DNA from: Sulfurimonas autotrophica DSM 16294
GTDB lineage: Bacteria > Campylobacterota > Campylobacteria > Campylobacterales > Sulfurimonadaceae
Assembly: GCF_000147355.1 (NCBI RefSeq)
Contig: NC_014506.1
Coordinates: 434,001-498,000 of the forward strand
DNA: 64,000 nucleotides
Reading direction: 5' to 3'
Under the pieces are notes generated by a model. The model was not told the DNA's origin. It saw only the letters and a list, made by a program, of their open reading frames with translations, and made no database searches. Numbering within the stretch: the stretch's first letter is position 1; every line of letters begins with the position of its first letter. Position numbers and translations under genes: made by a program. Positions 10,040 through 60,736 of the stretch are shown in pieces.

Positions 10040-11437
10040 ATGAAAATACATTATGACTTGATAGTAATCGGGGCAGGACCGGCCGGGACTCCTGCAGCTA
10101 TGACAGCTGCACAGTTTGGTGCAAAAGTTTTACTTGTTGATAAAAGAGATGCTCCCGGCGGCGAGTGCCTTTTTGAGGGATGTATTCCTTCGAAAGTATT
10201 GGAAAATGCAGCAAATAATTATTGGAGAGTTATAAGCTCTAAGAAGTTTCATATCCAAAATACAAATACGGCGCAAATTCATTGGGAAGCAGTTATACAA
10301 GATAAAGACGAAATACTTAAAAAACGTTCTCAGGGTGCGATGCAGGTAATAAAAAAACTTCCTACACTTGATTTTAAACAAGGCACTGCAAAATTTACAG
10401 ATGCCCATACGCTCAACATAGATGGAGAGTTTTTTTCTTTTGACAAAGCTCTTATTGCAACAGGCGGAAAAACTACAATTCCTCCTTTGAAAGGAAACGG
10501 TGTTGATAAAATTTGGACAAACAAAGATGTGTTTTTTGAAAAAGAGTTGCCAAAAGAGTTGCTATTTATAGGTGCCGGAGCTATCAGCTGTGAACTGACA
10601 CAGATGTTTAATAAGCTTGGTGTGAAGTGTCATATTTTAGAACGTAGTGAACGAATATTGAGACATCTTCCTTCAGAAGCTGCCCTTACAGTACAAAATA
10701 AAATGATTGAAAATGGGGTCACCGTTGATTTACATGTAGATTTACAAAAGATTGATTATGAAAATGACAAATTTATTGTTACATTTATGCAAGAGGGCAA
10801 AGAACGCATCTTAGAATGTAAACATGTGCTTATGGCAACCGGTCGCGGTGCAAATGTTGATGGACTTGAACTTGAAAATGCAAATGTGGAGTATAACAAA
10901 GGCGGAGTAGTCGTCAATAAACAACTGCAATCATCACAAGCACATATCTATGCTTGCGGCGATTGTGTGCCGGGTCCAAAATTTGCACATACCGCAACGT
11001 ATGAAGCAGGTATAGTTGTGCATAATATGTTTGCACCGAGTTCACATTTTGTAAATTATGATAAAAATTCATGGGTACTCTTTAGTGATCCTCAAATCGG
11101 TATTGCCGGCATAAATGAACAACAGGCACATGAGAGAGGATTAGATGTAGATATCGCAACTTATGATTATTCACAAGATGCAAGAAGCCAGATAGACAAA
11201 AGCACAGAGGGATTTGTGAAATTTATTATAGATAAAAAATCGAAAGTTATTATAGGCATAGAGATTGTCAGCGAAGATGCAGCTTCGCTTCTAGGCGAAG
11301 CTGCTTTAATAGTGGCTAATGAAATGAACAGTATGGATATTATGAAAGCCATCCATCCGCATCCGACATTAACAGAAAGCTTTGGTAAATTGGCACAACA
11401 GATATTTTTCAAATCTATGATGCAAAGAAACAGATGA
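10040..11437 (+). CDS. Dihydrolipoamide dehydrogenase-like flavoprotein
   Basis: A 465-residue class I pyridine nucleotide-disulfide oxidoreductase. It has the FAD loop IGAGPAGTPAA at residues 10-20, a redox disulfide in GGECLFEGCIPSK (C43, C48), a second Rossmann motif GAGAISCELTQMF, a YACGDCVPG FAD segment, and the C-terminal AIHPHPTLTES with the catalytic His/Glu pair. This pattern fits dihydrolipoamide dehydrogenase or close relatives such as mercuric reductase-like enzymes; the ECLFEG loop differs from the common TCLNVG. It lies ten bases after the aldolase. A second, different Lpd gene lies in the pyruvate dehydrogenase operon, so this copy may serve another complex or another disulfide substrate. 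Confidence 0.8.
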   Translation: MKIHYDLIVIGAGPAGTPAAMTAAQFGAKVLLVDKRDAPGGECLFEGCIPSKVLENAANNYWRVISSKKFHIQNTNTAQIHWEAVIQDKDEILKKRSQGAMQVIKKLPTLDFKQGTAKFTDAHTLNIDGEFFSFDKALIATGGKTTIPPLKGNGVDKIWTNKDVFFEKELPKELLFIGAGAISCELTQMFNKLGVKCHILERSERILRHLPSEAALTVQNKMIENGVTVDLHVDLQKIDYENDKFIVTFMQEGKERILECKHVLMATGRGANVDGLELENANVEYNKGGVVVNKQLQSSQAHIYACGDCVPGPKFAHTATYEAGIVVHNMFAPSSHFVNYDKNSWVLFSDPQIGIAGINEQQAHERGLDVDIATYDYSQDARSQIDKSTEGFVKFIIDKKSKVIIGIEIVSEDAASLLGEAALIVANEMNSMDIMKAIHPHPTLTESFGKLAQQIFFKSMMQRNR

Positions 11438-11520
11438 TAAAACATGTCAAATTCAATAATTAAAAGTCTTAGAAGCTTTTGATTTATGAAGAAATCATAT
11501 TGTGGCTGTTTCTCTCTTTT

Positions 11521-12546
11521 TTAGTGCCAGACTCCTTCAAGCGAGTAGCCGCAATGCGGACAGGTTCCATTCTCATCAAGTTCATTGGTGACGTATTGTC
11601 CGATTTGCCCTTGTCGGTCGATTACTCTTTCACCACATTGAGGACAGTAAGTTGATTCATAATCTTCATCCGCGATATTGCCTACATAAATATACTTTAG
11701 ACCTTCTTCTTTACCTATTTTGTAAGCTCTACGCAGTGTTGATAACGGTGTAGAAGGAACATCCAGCATTTTATACATGGGATGAAAGGCAGAGAGGTGC
11801 CATGGCATTGTCGGATCGACCTCTGCTATAAATTTAGCAATATTCCTTATTTCCTCATCCGAATCATTTTTCCCTGGAATTAATAGTGTTGTTATCTCTA
11901 CCCAGATTCCTTTTTCATGCGCGTATTTGACACATTCCAATACCGGTTTGAGTCTGGCACCGCAAATTTCTTTGTAAAATTCTTCTGTAAAGCCTTTAAT
12001 ATCTATATTCATTCCGTCGATATATGGTGCAAGTAAATCCAAGGCTTTACGTGTTTCAAATCCACTGGTAACATAGATATTTTTCAGCCCTTTTTCATGC
12101 GCCAGTTTTGCCGTATCATAAGTGTATTCAAAAAAGACGATTGGCTCATTATAAGTATAGGCAATAGATTTACATCCATTTTCAATGGCAAGCTCAATGA
12201 TACGCTCCGGTGGAAGTTCCTTACCGAATATTTTATGTTCATGCTCTTTTGGATATTGAGAAATATCGAAATTTTGGCAAAATTTACAAGAAAAATTACA
12301 GCCTACTGTTCCAAGCGAAAAGGCTTTCGTGTTAGGCAGAAAATTGAACATTGGTTTTTTCTCTACCGGGTCTATGTTCACCGCAGCGGCAAGTCCATAT
12401 ACAAGCAGTTTGAGCTCGCCGTCTTCTACTTTTCTTACCCCACAAATTCCGTATTCACCTTCATCCATCTTACATGACTGCGCACATGCTTGACAGAGAA
12501 TTTTTCCGCTACTGAGTTTTTTACTCAACCATGCTGTTGCTGACAT
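11521..12546 (-). CDS. amrS: AmmeMemoRadiSam system radical SAM enzyme
   Basis: A 341-residue radical SAM protein with the cluster motif CNFSCKFC at C83, C87 and C90. The N-terminal CQACAQSC and GICGVR segments and the C-terminal zinc-ribbon pairs (YCPQCGE, CPHCGYS) match the AmmeMemoRadiSam radical SAM family. Its partners in that system, AMMECR1 and Memo-like proteins, are not in this window, and the reaction is not established. It is read convergently toward the dihydrolipoamide dehydrogenase-like gene and divergently from the second metK gene, 135 bases away. The pairing of a SAM consumer with a SAM maker across one promoter region is notable. Ribosome site AAGGAG precedes the ATG. Confidence 0.9.
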   Translation of the reverse strand: MSATAWLSKKLSSGKILCQACAQSCKMDEGEYGICGVRKVEDGELKLLVYGLAAAVNIDPVEKKPMFNFLPNTKAFSLGTVGCNFSCKFCQNFDISQYPKEHEHKIFGKELPPERIIELAIENGCKSIAYTYNEPIVFFEYTYDTAKLAHEKGLKNIYVTSGFETRKALDLLAPYIDGMNIDIKGFTEEFYKEICGARLKPVLECVKYAHEKGIWVEITTLLIPGKNDSDEEIRNIAKFIAEVDPTMPWHLSAFHPMYKMLDVPSTPLSTLRRAYKIGKEEGLKYIYVGNIADEDYESTYCPQCGERVIDRQGQIGQYVTNELDENGTCPHCGYSLEGVWH

Positions 12547-12681
12547 CTTTTCTCCTTTATAAGTCGTGAAAATATCCTTATTGTACCATTAAAATCTTCT
12601 ATTTGCTATAAAAATGATATGATATAAAAATAGAGTTGGTTTGTAAATGTTCTAGTATTGTAAAAAGAAGGAGGGTTTTTC

Positions 12682-13884
12682 ATGTATTATTTTGTTTCAG
12701 AAGCTGTATCAGCAGGTCATCCGGATAAATGTGCAGATATTATTGCTGATTCAATTGTAGATAGATTACTGCAGCTTGACTCCACCGCAAAAGTAGCAAC
12801 GGAGGTATTTATAAGCGGTAAGCATATTATTATTGGAGGAGAAGTTAAAACTGCTGCATTAGTAGATACTTCATTTTATGAAGAGATTGCGAGAGAAGCA
12901 CTTAAGCAGATAGGATATCCTGAGATTGGATTTAAGAAAGATGAAACACTTTTTCCGGATGAGACAGATATTGAAGTCTATATCAGCAGGCAGTCTCCCG
13001 ATATTACAATGGGAGTTGTTAAAGAAGATGATGAAATAGGGGCCGGAGATCAGGGAATGATATTTGGATATGCAACAAGTGAGCGTGAAGATTGCATGCC
13101 GACAGCTTTTTCTTATGCCAGACAAATAAGAGATGTATTGTATCAATATGCACTTAAAAATCCAAAAATATTCGGAGTAGACATAAAAACTGAAATAGTA
13201 ATGGATTATGGCAGTAAGGAAAATTTTGATAATTGTAAGCCGCAACGTATTGCAAAAATCATTGTAGCTATTCCGCATAACAGTAGTGTTGAGGCGGAGG
13301 AAGTGCAAGTGTTGGTTAAAAAAATCATAGCAGAGGAAGTAAACTTCAAAGCAGGGCATTTTAATGAAGATTCCATTGTGTTTTATATAAACAATACAGG
13401 AAGGTATGTAACACATTCGCCGATAGCAGATTCCGGTTTGACAGGAAGAAAGGTAGTCTGTGACACTTATGGAAGTTACGCTCCAATAGGCGGAGGAGCC
13501 CAAAGTTCAAAGGACTACAGTAAAGTTGACCGTTCGGCACTTTATGCTGCGAGATGGCTGGCAAAACATATTGTAGCAGCGGGACTTGCAAAAAAAGCTT
13601 TGGTACAGCTCTCTTATGTGATTGCCGAAGCCAGACCGATTGCTGTTACGGTCGATACACAACATACAAGTCTAATAAAAATGAAAGATGAAGAACTTTC
13701 TCAAATAATTGCAGATAAATTTTCATTAAGTCCCAAATGGATTATGCAAAAGTTTCATTTAAATAAACCAAGTAAAGAGAGTTTTTTATATGCAGATATT
13801 GCTGCAAAAGGGCAGGTTGGTTATGCGCAATATCCATGGGAACAGCTAGATGAATTAAACTGGTTTAAAAGCCTAAAAGAATAA
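12682..13884 (+). CDS. Divergent S-adenosylmethionine synthetase (second MetK)
   Basis: Predicted to form S-adenosylmethionine from methionine and ATP. The 400-residue protein keeps the catalytic landmarks: GHPDK at 12-16, GAGDQG near 118, DSGLTGRK, and Lys/Asp residues in SSKDYSKVDRS. Several surrounding blocks differ from ordinary MetK: QSPDITMGVV instead of [22 protein letters not shown] instead of INPTGxFVIGGP, and GGGAQSSKD instead of GGGAFSGKD; the middle portion (FDNCKPQRIAKI) is also atypical. A canonical metK lies at 59579. A GGAGG ribosome site precedes the ATG. It is ten bases upstream of glucan phosphorylase, so it is probably cotranscribed with it. Likely active by residue conservation, but a changed substrate or interaction is possible. 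Confidence 0.85.
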   Translation: MYYFVSEAVSAGHPDKCADIIADSIVDRLLQLDSTAKVATEVFISGKHIIIGGEVKTAALVDTSFYEEIAREALKQIGYPEIGFKKDETLFPDETDIEVYISRQSPDITMGVVKEDDEIGAGDQGMIFGYATSEREDCMPTAFSYARQIRDVLYQYALKNPKIFGVDIKTEIVMDYGSKENFDNCKPQRIAKIIVAIPHNSSVEAEEVQVLVKKIIAEEVNFKAGHFNEDSIVFYINNTGRYVTHSPIADSGLTGRKVVCDTYGSYAPIGGGAQSSKDYSKVDRSALYAARWLAKHIVAAGLAKKALVQLSYVIAEARPIAVTVDTQHTSLIKMKDEELSQIIADKFSLSPKWIMQKFHLNKPSKESFLYADIAAKGQVGYAQYPWEQLDELNWFKSLKE

Positions 13885-13894
13885 AGAAGATATT

Positions 13895-16027
13895 ATGATA
13901 AATAAAGACCCGTCTGTTAATATAGCTATACCCAAACTTCCCAAAGCGATTGATGGTTTGAAAGAAATTTCACTTAATTTATGGTGGACATGGAACCCTA
14001 GAGGTAAAAATCTTTTTAAACGACTCAATGCCTACCTATGGAAAGAGAGTAGTCATAATCCCATTGCAATGCTTAAAAATATGTCAAAAGAGGAATTAGA
14101 CAAAGCATGTGCGGACGAATATTTTATGCGTGAATATCATTATGTATATGACATGTTTAAAGTATATATTAATGATACTAATATTTATGCAGATGAACCT
14201 CTTCCTATCGCATATTTTTGTGCAGAATACGGTCTGCATCATTCTGTGCCTATTTATTCAGGTGGACTTGGATTTTTAGCGGGAGATATTTTAAAAGAGT
14301 CAAGTGATATGGGTCTGCCGATGGTAGGTATAGGTTTTATGTATCCAAAGGGTTATGTTCGTCAGTTTATCGGTACGGATGGTTGGCAAAACGGAGCAGA
14401 AGAGCCTTTAGAAAAAGATGTAGCACCGATTGAAAGAGTTTTAGATAAAGATGAAAATCACTTTACAATAGAGGTGCCCTTTATTGATCCGCCCGTATAT
14501 GCAAGTGTATGGAAAATTAATGTCGGTCGGGTTACGCTTTATCTGCTTGATACCGATATTGAAAAAAATGATCCTTGGGACAGGCAGATTTCTTCAAGAC
14601 TTTATACCTCCGATAGAAATCAAAGACTGCGACAGCAGATTGTACTCGGTATAGGCGGGTACAGAGTGCTTGAGGAACTCGGTATTGAGTATTCCATTTT
14701 ACATCTTAATGAAGGGCATCCTGCTTTTGCTCTTTTTGAGAGAGTGAGAAGTTTTATGGAAAATGATAAATTAAGTTTGGATGCAGCTATCCAAAAAGTG
14801 AAAAAGACATCTGTATTTACAACGCATACGCCACTTCAAGCCGCGACTGATGTTTATAATTTTGACATGATAAGTGCATCCTTTAAAGATTACTGGGAAA
14901 AATTAGGGATGAATAAAGAGCAATTCATGAGTTTTGGACTTAACCCTGATAATCAAAGTGCAGGTTTTAATATGACGGTTTTCGGTATAAATATGTGTGA
15001 TAACAGAAATGCAGTCAGTAAAAAGCATTGTGAAGTGGCTACAAAAATATGGGAACATGTGCTGCCAAAAATGAAAGATGATAAACCGGCTATGGATTAT
15101 GTGACAAACGGTGTGCATTTGCCGACATGGATTGGTGATGAACTTGCTGAGGTAATAATGAGTTCTTTAGGAGACAAATGGAGTTTGATACAAGATGACA
15201 GTGCATTATGGGGTTTTGTAAAGGAAATAAATAACAAAAAACTTTGGGATATTTCACAAAGAAGCAAAGTTGCAATGGTTAACTTTATAAGAGAGCGTGT
15301 GCGGATTAAATATGCGCAAGATGGAATAGACCCTGTTGTGGCTATGGCGGAGGGAGTATTGTTAGATCCGGATATTTTAACAATTGGCTTTGCCCGTCGT
15401 ATGACTGAATATAAACGGCCTGATTTGATTTTGCATGATTTAGACAGACTGGAGAAAATTTTAAATAATAGCGGTAAGCCTGTTCAAATTATTTTTGCAG
15501 GGAAAGCTCATCCTTCTGATATGGCAGGGAAAAAAATACTGCAGCATATATTTAAGACAGCTCAAGATTGCAGATTTAGAGGGCGCATAGCTTTTGTGGA
15601 AGATTATGGTGAAAATGTTGCAAAGTATTTAGTTCATGGTGTAGATATATGGCTGAATAATCCACAAATTCCTATGGAGGCTTGCGGTACGAGCGGTATG
15701 AAGGCTTCGCTCAATGGCACACTTCATTTGTCAGTTTTAGATGGCTGGTGGCCGGAGGCTTACAATGGAAAAAATGGTTGGGCATTCGGAGTAGAACCGT
15801 CTGAGAATGCCAAAGATGCCTCAGCTTTATATGATTTACTGGAAAATGAAATAGTGCCGCTTTTTTATGATGTAGATAATAAAGGAGTGCCTAATAACTG
15901 GATACTAAAAATGAAAGAGGCAATGCTAAGCATACCGCCTGAGTTCAGTGCAAGGAGAATGATGAAGGATTATCTTGAAAAATTCTACATTCCTATATCA
16001 AAAGACTTGCAAAATAAAGAGAGTTAG
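13895..16027 (+). CDS. glgP: Alpha-glucan phosphorylase
   Basis: Releases glucose 1-phosphate from glycogen or maltodextrin with phosphate, using pyridoxal phosphate. The 710-residue protein is the shorter TIGR02094-type phosphorylase: an N-terminal DUF3417-like segment (LWWTWNPRGKNLFKRL), YSGGLGFLAGDILKE, HLNEGHPAFALFE, GFARRMTEYKRPDL, and the cofactor lysine in GTSGMKASLNGTLHLS near residue 600. It lies in a run with the second metK, a DUF389 protein, gap and pgm, so its product glucose 1-phosphate can go directly to phosphoglucomutase encoded downstream. Confidence 0.95.
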   Translation: MINKDPSVNIAIPKLPKAIDGLKEISLNLWWTWNPRGKNLFKRLNAYLWKESSHNPIAMLKNMSKEELDKACADEYFMREYHYVYDMFKVYINDTNIYADEPLPIAYFCAEYGLHHSVPIYSGGLGFLAGDILKESSDMGLPMVGIGFMYPKGYVRQFIGTDGWQNGAEEPLEKDVAPIERVLDKDENHFTIEVPFIDPPVYASVWKINVGRVTLYLLDTDIEKNDPWDRQISSRLYTSDRNQRLRQQIVLGIGGYRVLEELGIEYSILHLNEGHPAFALFERVRSFMENDKLSLDAAIQKVKKTSVFTTHTPLQAATDVYNFDMISASFKDYWEKLGMNKEQFMSFGLNPDNQSAGFNMTVFGINMCDNRNAVSKKHCEVATKIWEHVLPKMKDDKPAMDYVTNGVHLPTWIGDELAEVIMSSLGDKWSLIQDDSALWGFVKEINNKKLWDISQRSKVAMVNFIRERVRIKYAQDGIDPVVAMAEGVLLDPDILTIGFARRMTEYKRPDLILHDLDRLEKILNNSGKPVQIIFAGKAHPSDMAGKKILQHIFKTAQDCRFRGRIAFVEDYGENVAKYLVHGVDIWLNNPQIPMEACGTSGMKASLNGTLHLSVLDGWWPEAYNGKNGWAFGVEPSENAKDASALYDLLENEIVPLFYDVDNKGVPNNWILKMKEAMLSIPPEFSARRMMKDYLEKFYIPISKDLQNKES

Positions 16028-16036
16028 AGCAAAACA

Positions 16037-17041
16037 ATGGCACTGAGATTAATAGAAATTATTGTACCAAAAGCAAAAAAGAAAAATATTATAGATTTAA
16101 AAAAACTGCCGTTAGTTATAGACGCATGGCAGGAAGAAAATACGGTTTCAAATTTTATTTTTAAAATTTTAGTTGAAGCTGAAAATTCTGAAGTCTTAAT
16201 TGATAAAGTATCAAGACTTTTTAAAAAAGATGAAATATTTCGCATTGTAGTGCAGGATGTCGAAGCAACACTTCCTTTAGTGGAAGTTCCGCTAAAGGAG
16301 CCAATCAAAAAAAGTATAGGCAAACTAACAGTGAGCAGAGAAGAGTTGTATAATCAGGTTGCCGGCATGGCAGAACTCAATTATCTTTATCTGCTTATGA
16401 TTGCATTTGCAACTATTATTGCATCTTTTGGTTTTATAGAAGATAAATGGGTGGTTATTATCGGTGCTATGGTCGTTGCACCGCTAATAGCACCTAATAT
16501 AGCTTTTTCTTTGGGTGTTGTTCTTGGAGATAAAAATCTTGGAATGATGGGTATACTTGCTATGGGAGCCGGTGTTTTACTGGTGTTGGCAATCTCTTTA
16601 ATACTCGGTTTGACTTATCCACCTGATATTGCTTCAAAATCTCTGCAAAGTACACTCTTTTTTAGTTATGCAGATATAATCGTCGCACTTGCTTCAGGTG
16701 CAGTTGCCGTATTGGCATTTACATCAGGAACAGCCTTTGCCCTTATTGGAGTGATGGTCTCTATCTCTCTTTTACCTCCTTTGGTTGCAGCAGGTTTAGT
16801 ACTTGGAATGGGAAATTTTTATCTCTTTAGCAGTGCGATAACACTTTTTTTGATTAATTTTGTTGCATTGAATCTTTCTGGCGTTGTAACGTTTTGGTTT
16901 CAAGGTGTTCGTCCTAAAAACTGGTGGGAAGAGAAAAAAGCAAAACATTATCGCCTTGCAGCGACAGGCATGTGGCTCTTTTTGTTAATTATTTTAATTA
17001 TTATTATCTACTTGACGCATATAAATTTCTTATTTACTTAA
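16037..17041 (+). CDS. DUF389 / TIGR00341 membrane protein
   Basis: A 334-residue protein with a soluble N-terminal part of about 110 residues and then six or seven membrane segments. Features such as VVIIGAMVVAPLIAPNIAFSLG and ALIGVMVSISLLPPLVAAGL match the DUF389 (TIGR00341) family, whose transport substrate is unknown. The C-terminus carries a WWEEKKAKHY loop and a last hydrophobic helix. It begins nine bases after glgP and ends 48 bases before gap, which has its own TATAAT box. No sign of decay. Confidence 0.85.
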   Translation: MALRLIEIIVPKAKKKNIIDLKKLPLVIDAWQEENTVSNFIFKILVEAENSEVLIDKVSRLFKKDEIFRIVVQDVEATLPLVEVPLKEPIKKSIGKLTVSREELYNQVAGMAELNYLYLLMIAFATIIASFGFIEDKWVVIIGAMVVAPLIAPNIAFSLGVVLGDKNLGMMGILAMGAGVLLVLAISLILGLTYPPDIASKSLQSTLFFSYADIIVALASGAVAVLAFTSGTAFALIGVMVSISLLPPLVAAGLVLGMGNFYLFSSAITLFLINFVALNLSGVVTFWFQGVRPKNWWEEKKAKHYRLAATGMWLFLLIILIIIIYLTHINFLFT

Positions 17042-20316: not shown

Positions 20317-22818
20317 ATGAAAGCAGTAGTTATGGCGGGCGGATTCGGAACAAGAATCCAGCCTTTGACAAATTCACGGCCTAAGCCGATGTTACCGATA
20401 ATGAACAAGCCTATGATGGAGTATACAATGATGATGCTCAAAGATTTAGGTATAACAGAGTTTATAGTGCTTTTATATTTTAAACCCGAAATTATTCAAG
20501 ATTACTTCAAAGACGGCAGTGATTTCGGTATAAATATAAGCTATGTTATACCTGATGATGATTACGGTACGGCGGGAGCCGTGAAACTTGCGCAGGAACT
20601 TATAGGGGATGAGAATTTTATTATAATCAGCGGAGACTTAGTTACTGATTTTAACTTTAAAAAACTTTTTACATTCCATAAAGAAAAAAAATCAAAACTC
20701 TCCATCGGGCTTACATCTGTTGAAAATCCTCTGCAATTTGGTGTAGTTATAGCCAATGAAGAGGGTGTGATTGAAAAATTTCTTGAAAAACCGAGCTGGG
20801 GAGAGGTTTTCAGTGACACCATCAATACCGGTATTTATATAATAGAGCCTGAAATTTTGGATTTTATCCCTGAGGGTGAAAATTTTGATTTTGCAAAAGA
20901 TTTGTTCCCTGCTTTAATGGATAAAAAGATAGAATTGATGGCTTATAACTTAAAAGGCTATTGGCGTGATGTTGGTAATCCGCAAAGTTATCGAGAGGTA
21001 TATGAAGATATATTAGGCGGTGAGGTAAAGTTTAAAATACCGGGAAAAAAGAAAAAATACCCTGATGGAGTGCTGTATTCATTAGGTGAAAATAAGCTTG
21101 CGGATTCCGTTGAAATTATCGGTACAGTTGTATTGGGCCATAATGTAACGATTCAAAGAAATGTAAAACTTACAAACACTGTTATAGGCGACAACGTACA
21201 CATAGGGGATGCTAGTAAAATTAAGAATTCTGTCTTTTGGGAAGATATACAAGTCTCTCGGCATGCTTTTATGGATAGTTGTGTTATTTGTAATGATAAT
21301 ATAATTGAAAAAAATGTCACAGCAACTGCAGGGCTTATACTGGCAGAAGGGTGTGAAGTAGGGGAATTAACACGTTTTGACAAAGATGTAATTATATGGC
21401 CAAATAAAAAAATAGAACCGGCTTCAGTAGTGACAAATAATCTGATTTTGGGGAGTAAATACAAAAATTCTATTTTTGAAGACGGAAGTGTCTATGGTAA
21501 AAGCAACATTGAACTTTCTTGTGAAATGGCTACAAAATTGGGAGAAGCTTTGGGTGCTCAACTGCCGGTTCATTCTACTGTGTTAGCCGGACGTGACCAT
21601 GATAAAAATTCACGTATGATAAAACGTGCTTTTTTAGGAGGTTTAGTATCATCAGGTGTAAATATATTAGATTTAAAAGAGACACCGCCGTCAGTGCTCA
21701 GATTTACTCTTGCTCACAGCAGCAACATTATTGCAGGCGTACATTTTAAAAGATGTTTAAATGATACGGCTAGTTCTGAGATAACATTCTTTAATGATGA
21801 AGCAATGAAAATACATTCAGAATCTGCCAAAACAATCGAAAAAACTTTTTTTACAGAGAAATTCCGCCGTGTTGATTATAATCAAATAGGGAGAATTCGA
21901 GATACCCAACACAATATAGAGTGTAGTAATTATCAACGGGCTATTATGGATAATATAGACCATAAGATTGTAAAACATGAAAATTTCAAAGTAGTTATGG
22001 ATTTAATGCATGGTACAACGATAGATATATTTCCAAAAATTATCAATGATATGGCAGTAGAACATGTAACACTTAATTCTTATTATGATGAGCAAAAATT
22101 AACGAATATCTCTATGCTGGAGAAAAAATCACGGCTTAATGTATCAAAAATTGTACGCTGCCTTAACTATGATATGGGATTTTTAATCTATCCCAATGCC
22201 CAGCAGTTGGTTTTAGTAGCTGAAAACGGTGTTGTTTTGAGTAAAGTAAAAGCTCTGTATGCCGTACTTGAGTTATTGAATTTAGATGCCATGAATACAA
22301 AGAAAAAAGTTTTTTTACCGACTTGGGCGCCTGATATAAGATATTTTAAAAATCTTATAATTGAGCGAGGCAAGTATAGTGATTTTAAAGTGGAAAAATT
22401 AAAAGAGTATGATTTGATTGCTACGGTGGATGGGAATTTTGTTTTTACGGAATTCAGCTATACCCGTGATGCTATTTATGCGAGTTTTAAAATCATGGAG
22501 CTTTTAAGCATCTATAAAATTGATTTGTCAATTCTTATAACGAGTTTGAGCGATTTCTACTATAAACAATTTAAGGTTGATTGTCCACAAAAGTTAAAGG
22601 GTAAAATGATGAGAAAATTTCTTCAATATGCAAAGGGGAAGAAATCATCATCAGAAGTGGGTGTGAAAATTTGGGAAGGCAAAAATGATTGGGTATTAAT
22701 GATACCTGATCAGTACAGCGAACATCTTAACCTCTATATTCAGGCTGAGAATGACGAAAAAGGAGAGTTGCTCTATGAATCATATTTGAAAAAAATAGAG
22801 CAGTTTTCACAAGAATAG
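20317..22818 (+). CDS. Sugar-1-phosphate nucleotidyltransferase fused to a degenerate phosphohexomutase
   Basis: An 833-residue protein. Residues 1-230 are a nucleotidyltransferase with MAGGFGTRIQPLT and the RPKPMLPIMNKPMMEY lysine motif, an ISGDLVTDF metal site and EKPSWGEVFSDTINTGIY; residues about 250-380 are left-handed beta-helix repeats; residues about 385-833 are a phosphohexomutase fold. In the mutase part the expected TASHNP phosphoserine loop reads AGVHFKRCLND and the DGDADR metal loop reads IYPNAQQL, so it is probably not a mutase. Such fusions are usually annotated mannose-1-phosphate guanylyltransferase, but the sugar and nucleotide cannot be read here. It starts the alpha-glucan operon, eight bases before the first GH57 gene. 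Confidence 0.85.
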   Translation: MKAVVMAGGFGTRIQPLTNSRPKPMLPIMNKPMMEYTMMMLKDLGITEFIVLLYFKPEIIQDYFKDGSDFGINISYVIPDDDYGTAGAVKLAQELIGDENFIIISGDLVTDFNFKKLFTFHKEKKSKLSIGLTSVENPLQFGVVIANEEGVIEKFLEKPSWGEVFSDTINTGIYIIEPEILDFIPEGENFDFAKDLFPALMDKKIELMAYNLKGYWRDVGNPQSYREVYEDILGGEVKFKIPGKKKKYPDGVLYSLGENKLADSVEIIGTVVLGHNVTIQRNVKLTNTVIGDNVHIGDASKIKNSVFWEDIQVSRHAFMDSCVICNDNIIEKNVTATAGLILAEGCEVGELTRFDKDVIIWPNKKIEPASVVTNNLILGSKYKNSIFEDGSVYGKSNIELSCEMATKLGEALGAQLPVHSTVLAGRDHDKNSRMIKRAFLGGLVSSGVNILDLKETPPSVLRFTLAHSSNIIAGVHFKRCLNDTASSEITFFNDEAMKIHSESAKTIEKTFFTEKFRRVDYNQIGRIRDTQHNIECSNYQRAIMDNIDHKIVKHENFKVVMDLMHGTTIDIFPKIINDMAVEHVTLNSYYDEQKLTNISMLEKKSRLNVSKIVRCLNYDMGFLIYPNAQQLVLVAENGVVLSKVKALYAVLELLNLDAMNTKKKVFLPTWAPDIRYFKNLIIERGKYSDFKVEKLKEYDLIATVDGNFVFTEFSYTRDAIYASFKIMELLSIYKIDLSILITSLSDFYYKQFKVDCPQKLKGKMMRKFLQYAKGKKSSSEVGVKIWEGKNDWVLMIPDQYSEHLNLYIQAENDEKGELLYESYLKKIEQFSQE

Positions 22819-59578: not shown

Positions 59579-60736
59579 ATGACGAAAGAGTATATATTTA
59601 CTTCAGAGTCTGTAACAGAAGGGCACCCTGATAAGATGGCAGATCAAATCAGTGATGCAATTTTGGATTATATTATTGAGCATGATGCCAATGCACGCGT
59701 TGCGTGTGAAACAATGGTATCAAATGGTTTTTGTGTAATTGCAGGCGAACTGAAAACGACGGCTTATGCCCCAATGCAAGAGATTGCAAGACAAGTAATT
59801 CGAGATATCGGATATACAGATGCAACATATGGCTTTGATTATAGATCAGCCGCAGTTTTAAACGGAATAGGTGAACAGTCACCGGATATCAACCAGGGTG
59901 TTGATCAGGCAGGGGGTGAAATAGGCGCAGGTGATCAAGGTTTAATGTTCGGTTACGCTTGTCGTGAGACAGATGTTCTTATGCCTTTACCGATTCACTT
60001 ATCACATCGTTTAACAGAGCGATTGGCCGCAGTCAGAAAAGAAGGTATAGTTCCTTACCTACGTCCTGATGGAAAAGCACAAATCAGTGTAAAATATGTA
60101 GGAGATAAACCTGTATCAGTTGAAACTGTCGTTATTTCTACACAGCATGCTCCTGAAGTTTCTCAAGAGCAGATTCACAAAGATGTAATCGAAGAGGTAA
60201 TACGAAAAGTAATTCCTGTCCAAATGATGGATGAAAATACAGTTTTTCATATTAATCCAACAGGAAAGTTTGTAATTGGTGGCCCTCAGGGAGATGCCGG
60301 TCTTACAGGTCGTAAAATAATAGTAGATACATACGGAGGAAGCTGCCCGCATGGTGGTGGTGCATTTTCCGGAAAAGATCCAACCAAGGTTGATAGAAGC
60401 GCTGCATATGCTGCTCGCTGGGTTGCAAAAAACCTTGTAGCTGCAGGTGCATGTGATAAAGTTACAATTCAAGTTGCCTATGCAATCGGCGTTGTCCAGC
60501 CCGTTTCTATTATGGTTGATACACACAATACGGGCAAAGTTGCTGAAGAGAAAATTGAAGCTTGTGTAAAAGATATTTTTGATCTTTCACCGGCAGGTAT
60601 TATTAAATCATTGGATTTATTAAAACCGATTTATCGAAAAACGGCAGCTTATGGACATTTTGGTCGTGAAGAAGCCGGCTTTAACTGGGAAAGAACAGAT
60701 AAAGTTGATGAAATAAAAGAGTATTTAAGCATCTAA
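59579..60736 (+). CDS. metK: S-adenosylmethionine synthetase (canonical)
   Basis: A 385-residue canonical MetK that makes S-adenosylmethionine from ATP and methionine. All standard blocks are present: [74 protein letters not shown] and [20 protein letters not shown]. The ribosome site is AAGGAAAA. This must be the housekeeping enzyme; compare the divergent copy at 12682. Confidence 0.97.

Follow-up and report, generated by a model that had tools for sequence, protein, structure and literature searches.

We identified in Sulfurimonas autotrophica DSM 16294 an accessory methionine adenosyltransferase (MAT) gene, metK2, which belongs to the Campylobacter jejuni type of the enzyme and tends to be co-inherited with amrS2, an orphan second radical SAM gene of the AmrS type. 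SAM synthetase is usually regarded as a single essential housekeeping enzyme per bacterium, and metK2 stands beside a canonical copy. In the reading that we favour, tentatively and at somewhat short of an even chance, MetK2 makes ordinary SAM as an accessory synthetase and was gained with amrS2, and its likeliest job would be the provision of extra SAM for AmrS2.

The window, by which we mean the whole 64,000-nucleotide stretch that was analysed (434001-498000 on a single 2.15 Mb contig), holds two metK genes, as the first-pass annotation had claimed. These are the canonical and presumably housekeeping metK1 (59579-60736, + strand; 385 amino acids) and the divergent metK2 (12682-13884, + strand), an intact open reading frame of 400 amino acids whose product is 37% identical to MetK1. 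A PF02773 search of the 2.15 Mb genome returned exactly two metK copies and no third. The motifs HPDK, GAGDQG, DSGLTGRK, KVDRS, DITMGVV, INNTGRYVTHSP and GGGAQSSKD, all named in that annotation, were found in the metK2 reading frame, and its spacings were also right: 135 bases (12547-12681) lie between metK2 and the divergent amrS2 (11521-12546, - strand), and 10 bases between the metK2 stop and the start of glgP (13895-16027, + strand), an alpha-glucan phosphorylase gene (TIGR02094) of the host island. The spacer carries no promoter signal above chance (22 sigma-70-like sites against 18.5 expected from shuffles) and no RNA family; an Rfam search of 11000-17000 gave no SAM riboswitch and one sub-threshold snoRNA match, which we take as chance, and no clear common operator was seen in eight aligned intergenic regions.

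MetK2 contains all three MAT domains and passes the NCBIfam metK model TIGR01034 with 343.6 bits, compared with 609.9 bits for MetK1 (cut-off 309.4). Its best sequence match in the PDB is 4LE5 (481 bits; next 252), which we take from the PDB title to be the "unusual" C. jejuni MAT of Zano, Pavlovsky and Viola (2014). A fold search with an AlphaFold2 model of MetK2 (single chain, 23-row alignment; mean pLDDT 83.5, residues 244-282 poor) also placed 4LE5 first, with a TM score of 0.88 and 53% identity. In a passage of PMC9202080, 4LE5 is given as a dimer with no tetramer formed in the crystal. Since 4LE5 is the best match by both sequence and fold, most of what stands out in MetK2 belongs to a known enzyme type, and its divergence is not new in kind. 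With that enzyme MetK2 shares family, fold, common insertions and common changed blocks; with canonical MetK (MetK1 and the E. coli group of 1FUG and 7LL3) it shares the fold and the catalytic residues, but the gate loop, the GGP block and the GGGAFSGKD block are changed.

A 69-row MAT tree separated canonical MetK from the C. jejuni type with 100/100 support, and MetK2 groups with 4LE5 on the same side, in agreement with the sequence and fold searches. The C. jejuni type divides into clade A (22 rows, 99/97), to which MetK2 belongs, and a remainder that we call clade B (18 rows, 84/84). Of 35 more loci that were placed, just two, from G013 and G053, joined clade A and brought it to 24 rows. 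The G053 gene (L012, 1501-2685) contains one internal TAG, so it may be decaying, or the assembly may be in error. Sixteen genomes of our 397-genome Campylobacterota sample carry clade A (G000, G013, G029, G036, G053, G057, G198, G218, G220, G224, G228, G257, G263, G364, G371 and G396). All 16 have at least two MAT matches, and in G228 the other MAT is of clade B. Clade A differs from the C. jejuni MAT in that another MAT was always found with it, as well as in further fixed changes, whereas many genomes of other families yielded a clade-B MAT of the 4LE5 type and no second one. By a hand count that defined the C. jejuni type as a best E value under 1e-120, 53 of the 397 genomes combine such a MAT with at least one more MAT match.

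The genes metK2 and amrS2 are linked in relatives, a point that the first-pass annotation had put forward as a check for the divergent MetK and amrS. They directly adjoin in 7 of the 16 clade-A genomes and do so in two opposite orientations, head-to-head in G000, G218, G220, G224 and G263 and tail-to-tail in G228 and G198; in one more (G371) they lie about 2 kb apart. Adjacent pairs are also present on the named contigs L033, L035 and L036, while on L037 and L039 the contig ends are too near metK2 for adjacency to be judged. The partnership is not strict, because amrS2 is farther off or on no shared contig in six of the 16 genomes (G013, G029, G036, G053, G057 and G257), lies about 26 kb away in G364, and is absent from G396, which nevertheless has a clade-A metK2. 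No adjacent amrS was found within the stretches covered of six more named clade-A contigs or genomes, among them L038, L040, L042, L044 and L045.

Irrespective of distance, amrS2 (presence limit, 62% identity) occurs in 15/16 clade-A genomes and in 33/381 others. A one-sided exact test stratified by genus gave p = 0.00024; the stratification limits the effect of kinship, species within a genus still not being independent. The clade-A genomes compare with the rest of their genus as 6/7 to 0/4 (g50), 1/1 to 0/3 (g33), 1/1 to 1/14 (g28), 1/1 to 14/30 (g1), 3/3 to 4/4 (g17) and 2/2 to 1/1 (g27), and G057, the only member of its genus, contributes nothing. In family f8, amrS2 is present in all sampled g17 and g27 genomes, clade A or not. 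Protein distances of MetK2 and AmrS2 are correlated over ten pairs, G371 included (Mantel r = 0.83, p = 0.009). Both genes are under purifying selection: in comparison with L033, dN/dS is about 0.10 in metK2 and 0.05 in amrS2. L033 is a Sulfurimonas MAG contig and, among named relatives, the one closest to this locus (MetK2 91% identical).

The product of amrS2 passes TIGR04337 with 381.9 bits (cut-off 220), and this is the likeness to the AmmeMemoRadiSam system (AmrA, AmrB, AmrS). The same model found two amrS copies in the genome. The other copy (G000:C1:1172547) overlaps amrB (C1:1173539), a good amrA match lies at C1:936838, and a second, partial AMMECR1 match (25.3 bits, cut-off 25) was seen at G000:C1:124845-125132. 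No amrA or amrB adjoins the amrS2 of the window or of any other amrS2 locus fetched. In a quick amrS tree of 83 rows, the relatives of amrS2 occupy their own part with 57 rows, two of which, L137 and L138, join the others on long branches; none of the 57 is beside amrA or amrB, whereas 25 of the 26 other amrS rows have one of them near, the exception being L120. The suggested tie to the AmmeMemoRadiSam system as such therefore found no support, since the amrS linked to amrB is another gene and the amrS2 loci fetched have neither amrA nor amrB next to them. Two different amrS2 genes, from two separate branches of the amrS2 part of the tree, stand in tandem in L130-L133 (G013, G029, G036 and G374). 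AmrS2 has no close solved structure in the PDB, the best match being a pyruvate formate-lyase activating enzyme at 37.8 bits, and neither the AmrS reaction nor metK paralogs in Campylobacterota are treated in the titles and abstracts of the open-licence literature searched.

The metK2 genes of the window and L033 are nested among Sulfurovum rows, and forcing the Sulfurovum rows together without them gave a worse tree (p-AU 0.015, for a grouping chosen after the tree was seen), so metK2 was likely acquired by transfer. The first-pass annotation had named a recent transfer without a link to amrS as the case that would speak against its proposal: transfer is indeed likely for metK2, but amrS2 moved along with it. 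For amrS2, sequence identity hints at a transfer from Sulfurovum: the window copy matches L033 at 95%, most of the Sulfurovum loci with adjacent genes at 91-93%, G224 at 81% and others at no more than 86%. This candidate was set aside, since the fairer AU test allows a Sulfurimonas grouping (p = 0.209); with one row of the Sulfurimonas group omitted, the p-AU was 0.023, which is unreliable. A plasmid or phage origin was rejected as well, as 166 plasmid and 125 phage records matched and none did so at 60% identity or more.

In L033 the gene order is pps-hdeD-aldolase-amrS-metK2-glgP-gap, and in the window the pair lies in a glycogen/gluconeogenesis island that also holds PEP synthase, aldolase, glgP and GH57 genes. 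Next to the GH57 enzyme, 20317-22815 encodes an 833-amino-acid protein that combines a nucleotidyltransferase with a hexapeptide region and a phosphoglucomutase-like half. A functional link of metK2 to glgP, which had also been raised, was not borne out. Of 85 genomes in the genus, only 4 have the window's type of glgP, and in two of the other three (G438 and G404) an enolase gene (L218 8626-9903 and L219 4029-5306, by our own reading of the open reading frames) precedes glgP; in the third, G442, the contig starts inside glgP. As enolase occupies the same slot in two sister islands, the 10-base step from metK2 into glgP is incidental, and glgP is a neighbour by insertion that is not thought to be part of the metK2-amrS2 pair.

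These results bear on the strongest rival explanation, namely that metK2 is a redundant, horizontally mobile MAT gene and that amrS2 belongs by chance to the unit in which it moves, with no biochemical link, the two genes sharing stress or carbon-storage islands since such islands gather genes. The likely transfer of metK2, the enolase found in the place of the pair in two sister islands and the nine clade-A genomes of 16 without adjacency all fit such neutral hitch-hiking. Nevertheless, it explains poorly why co-occurrence holds in 15 of the 16 even where the genes are far apart, why adjacency is kept in two opposite orientations and in several families, and why both genes are under purifying selection, and we regard it as possible but on the unlikely side.

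In the accessory-synthetase reading that we prefer, MetK2 would turn ATP and methionine into ordinary S-adenosylmethionine, as a 4LE5-type enzyme, while canonical MetK1 would cover the general need for SAM. Both metK2 and amrS2 would have been gained jointly as a two-gene cassette, probably out of the Sulfurovum lineage, and inserted in a glycogen/gluconeogenesis island, and MetK2 would most likely give AmrS2 extra SAM with kinetics or feedback unlike those of MetK1. We infer this supply role from gene order and co-occurrence. Several observations stand against it: amrS2 is common without a clade-A MetK (33 genomes), and the tail-to-tail layout yields no shared transcription. The loose partnership described above, the g17 and g27 genomes of f8, in which amrS2 occurs whether or not clade A does, and the named clade-A contigs without an adjacent amrS also speak against it.

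The surroundings of amrS2 in other loci raise the possibility that MetK2 is a stress or starvation isozyme, making SAM for several enzymes at low energy or under protein damage, with AmrS2 as one of the set. In several other Sulfurimonas genomes an alanine dehydrogenase gene is followed by a PCMT gene and then amrS2, and elsewhere amrS2 adjoins a flavin reductase, HdeD-like or host-attachment-like gene. Its neighbours PCMT, another methyltransferase, Hsp20, J-domain, HdeD-like and DksA-like proteins would suit this role, as would the PEP synthase, aldolase, glgP and GH57 genes of the window's island. However, no such neighbour recurs beside metK2 in the way that amrS2 does, and the isozyme explanation seems doubtful to us.

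The sequence changes in clade A bear on the question of whether the enzyme itself is altered. Sixteen catalytic, ligand-binding or metal-binding positions, the catalytic and metal-binding ones as in E. coli MAT, are invariant in clade A (22/22 rows), clade B (18/18) and canonical MetK (29/29). Relative to both other groups, and in MetK1 numbering, clade A has S to A at position 187, P to N, G or H at 227 and A to V at 302 (each 22/22), and Q to M or I at 106 (19/22); at position 238 clade A carries A (22/22), where clade B has H or Y and canonical MetK has G. The blocks that the first-pass annotation had described as changed are indeed divergent, but only in part specific to clade A, some being hallmarks of the C. 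jejuni type: clade B likewise has Q and S in GGGAQSSKD and H in HSP, whereas M in DITMGVV and N in INNTG typify clade A alone. The C. jejuni MAT is said, after Zano et al. in 2014, to use alternative substrates better. It is quite improbable, in our view, that AmrS2 uses a modified SAM, with another amino acid or nucleotide, which MetK2 would produce or tolerate: that C. jejuni behaviour and the fixed changes near the pocket are suggestive, but all 16 checked positions are kept and no gene for synthesis of an unusual methionine analogue was recognised adjoining the pair in the annotated loci. Position 302 is a neighbour of I303, which is retained in clade A and which a passage of PMC6152220 places at the methyl group of SAM in MAT, reporting also that I303V lowers product inhibition of the E. 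coli enzyme. The clade-A changes near the pocket thus suggest altered kinetics and nothing beyond.

A bolder version of the supply role would make clade A a partner-dedicated MAT lineage, whose pocket changes would serve the delivery of SAM, or of a variant of it, to AmrS2 apart from the housekeeping pool, under a rule that accessory MATs of Campylobacterota travel with radical SAM enzymes; lineage and rule together strike us as improbable. The accessory MAT of clade B in Sulfurimonas, encoded with MqnE and an autoinducer-2-kinase-like protein, would be a possible parallel. Its gene lies within 5 kb of mqnE in 15/15 loci of the window's genus (L061-L063, L179-L187 and L210-L212) and directly precedes mqnE, which encodes the radical SAM aminofutalosine synthase, in nine of them. 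An autoinducer-2-kinase-like gene (NF008187, 880 bits against 528) accompanies it in 14 of the 15; LsrG-like genes were seen at 10 of the loci, and aldolase-dehydrogenase genes at six. None of these four genes was found at five loci from other genera of the family (L188-L192).

In conclusion, our analyses reveal two accessory MAT lineages, each sitting with a radical SAM gene. The clade-B loci may form an operon in which a radical SAM enzyme is combined with SAM synthesis and with the handling of AI-2 or deoxysugars, and the co-inheritance of metK2 with amrS2 hints at a dedicated cofactor supply. If the link is functional, it would offer a handle on AmrS and a way to test whether a single cell runs separate supply lines for SAM.
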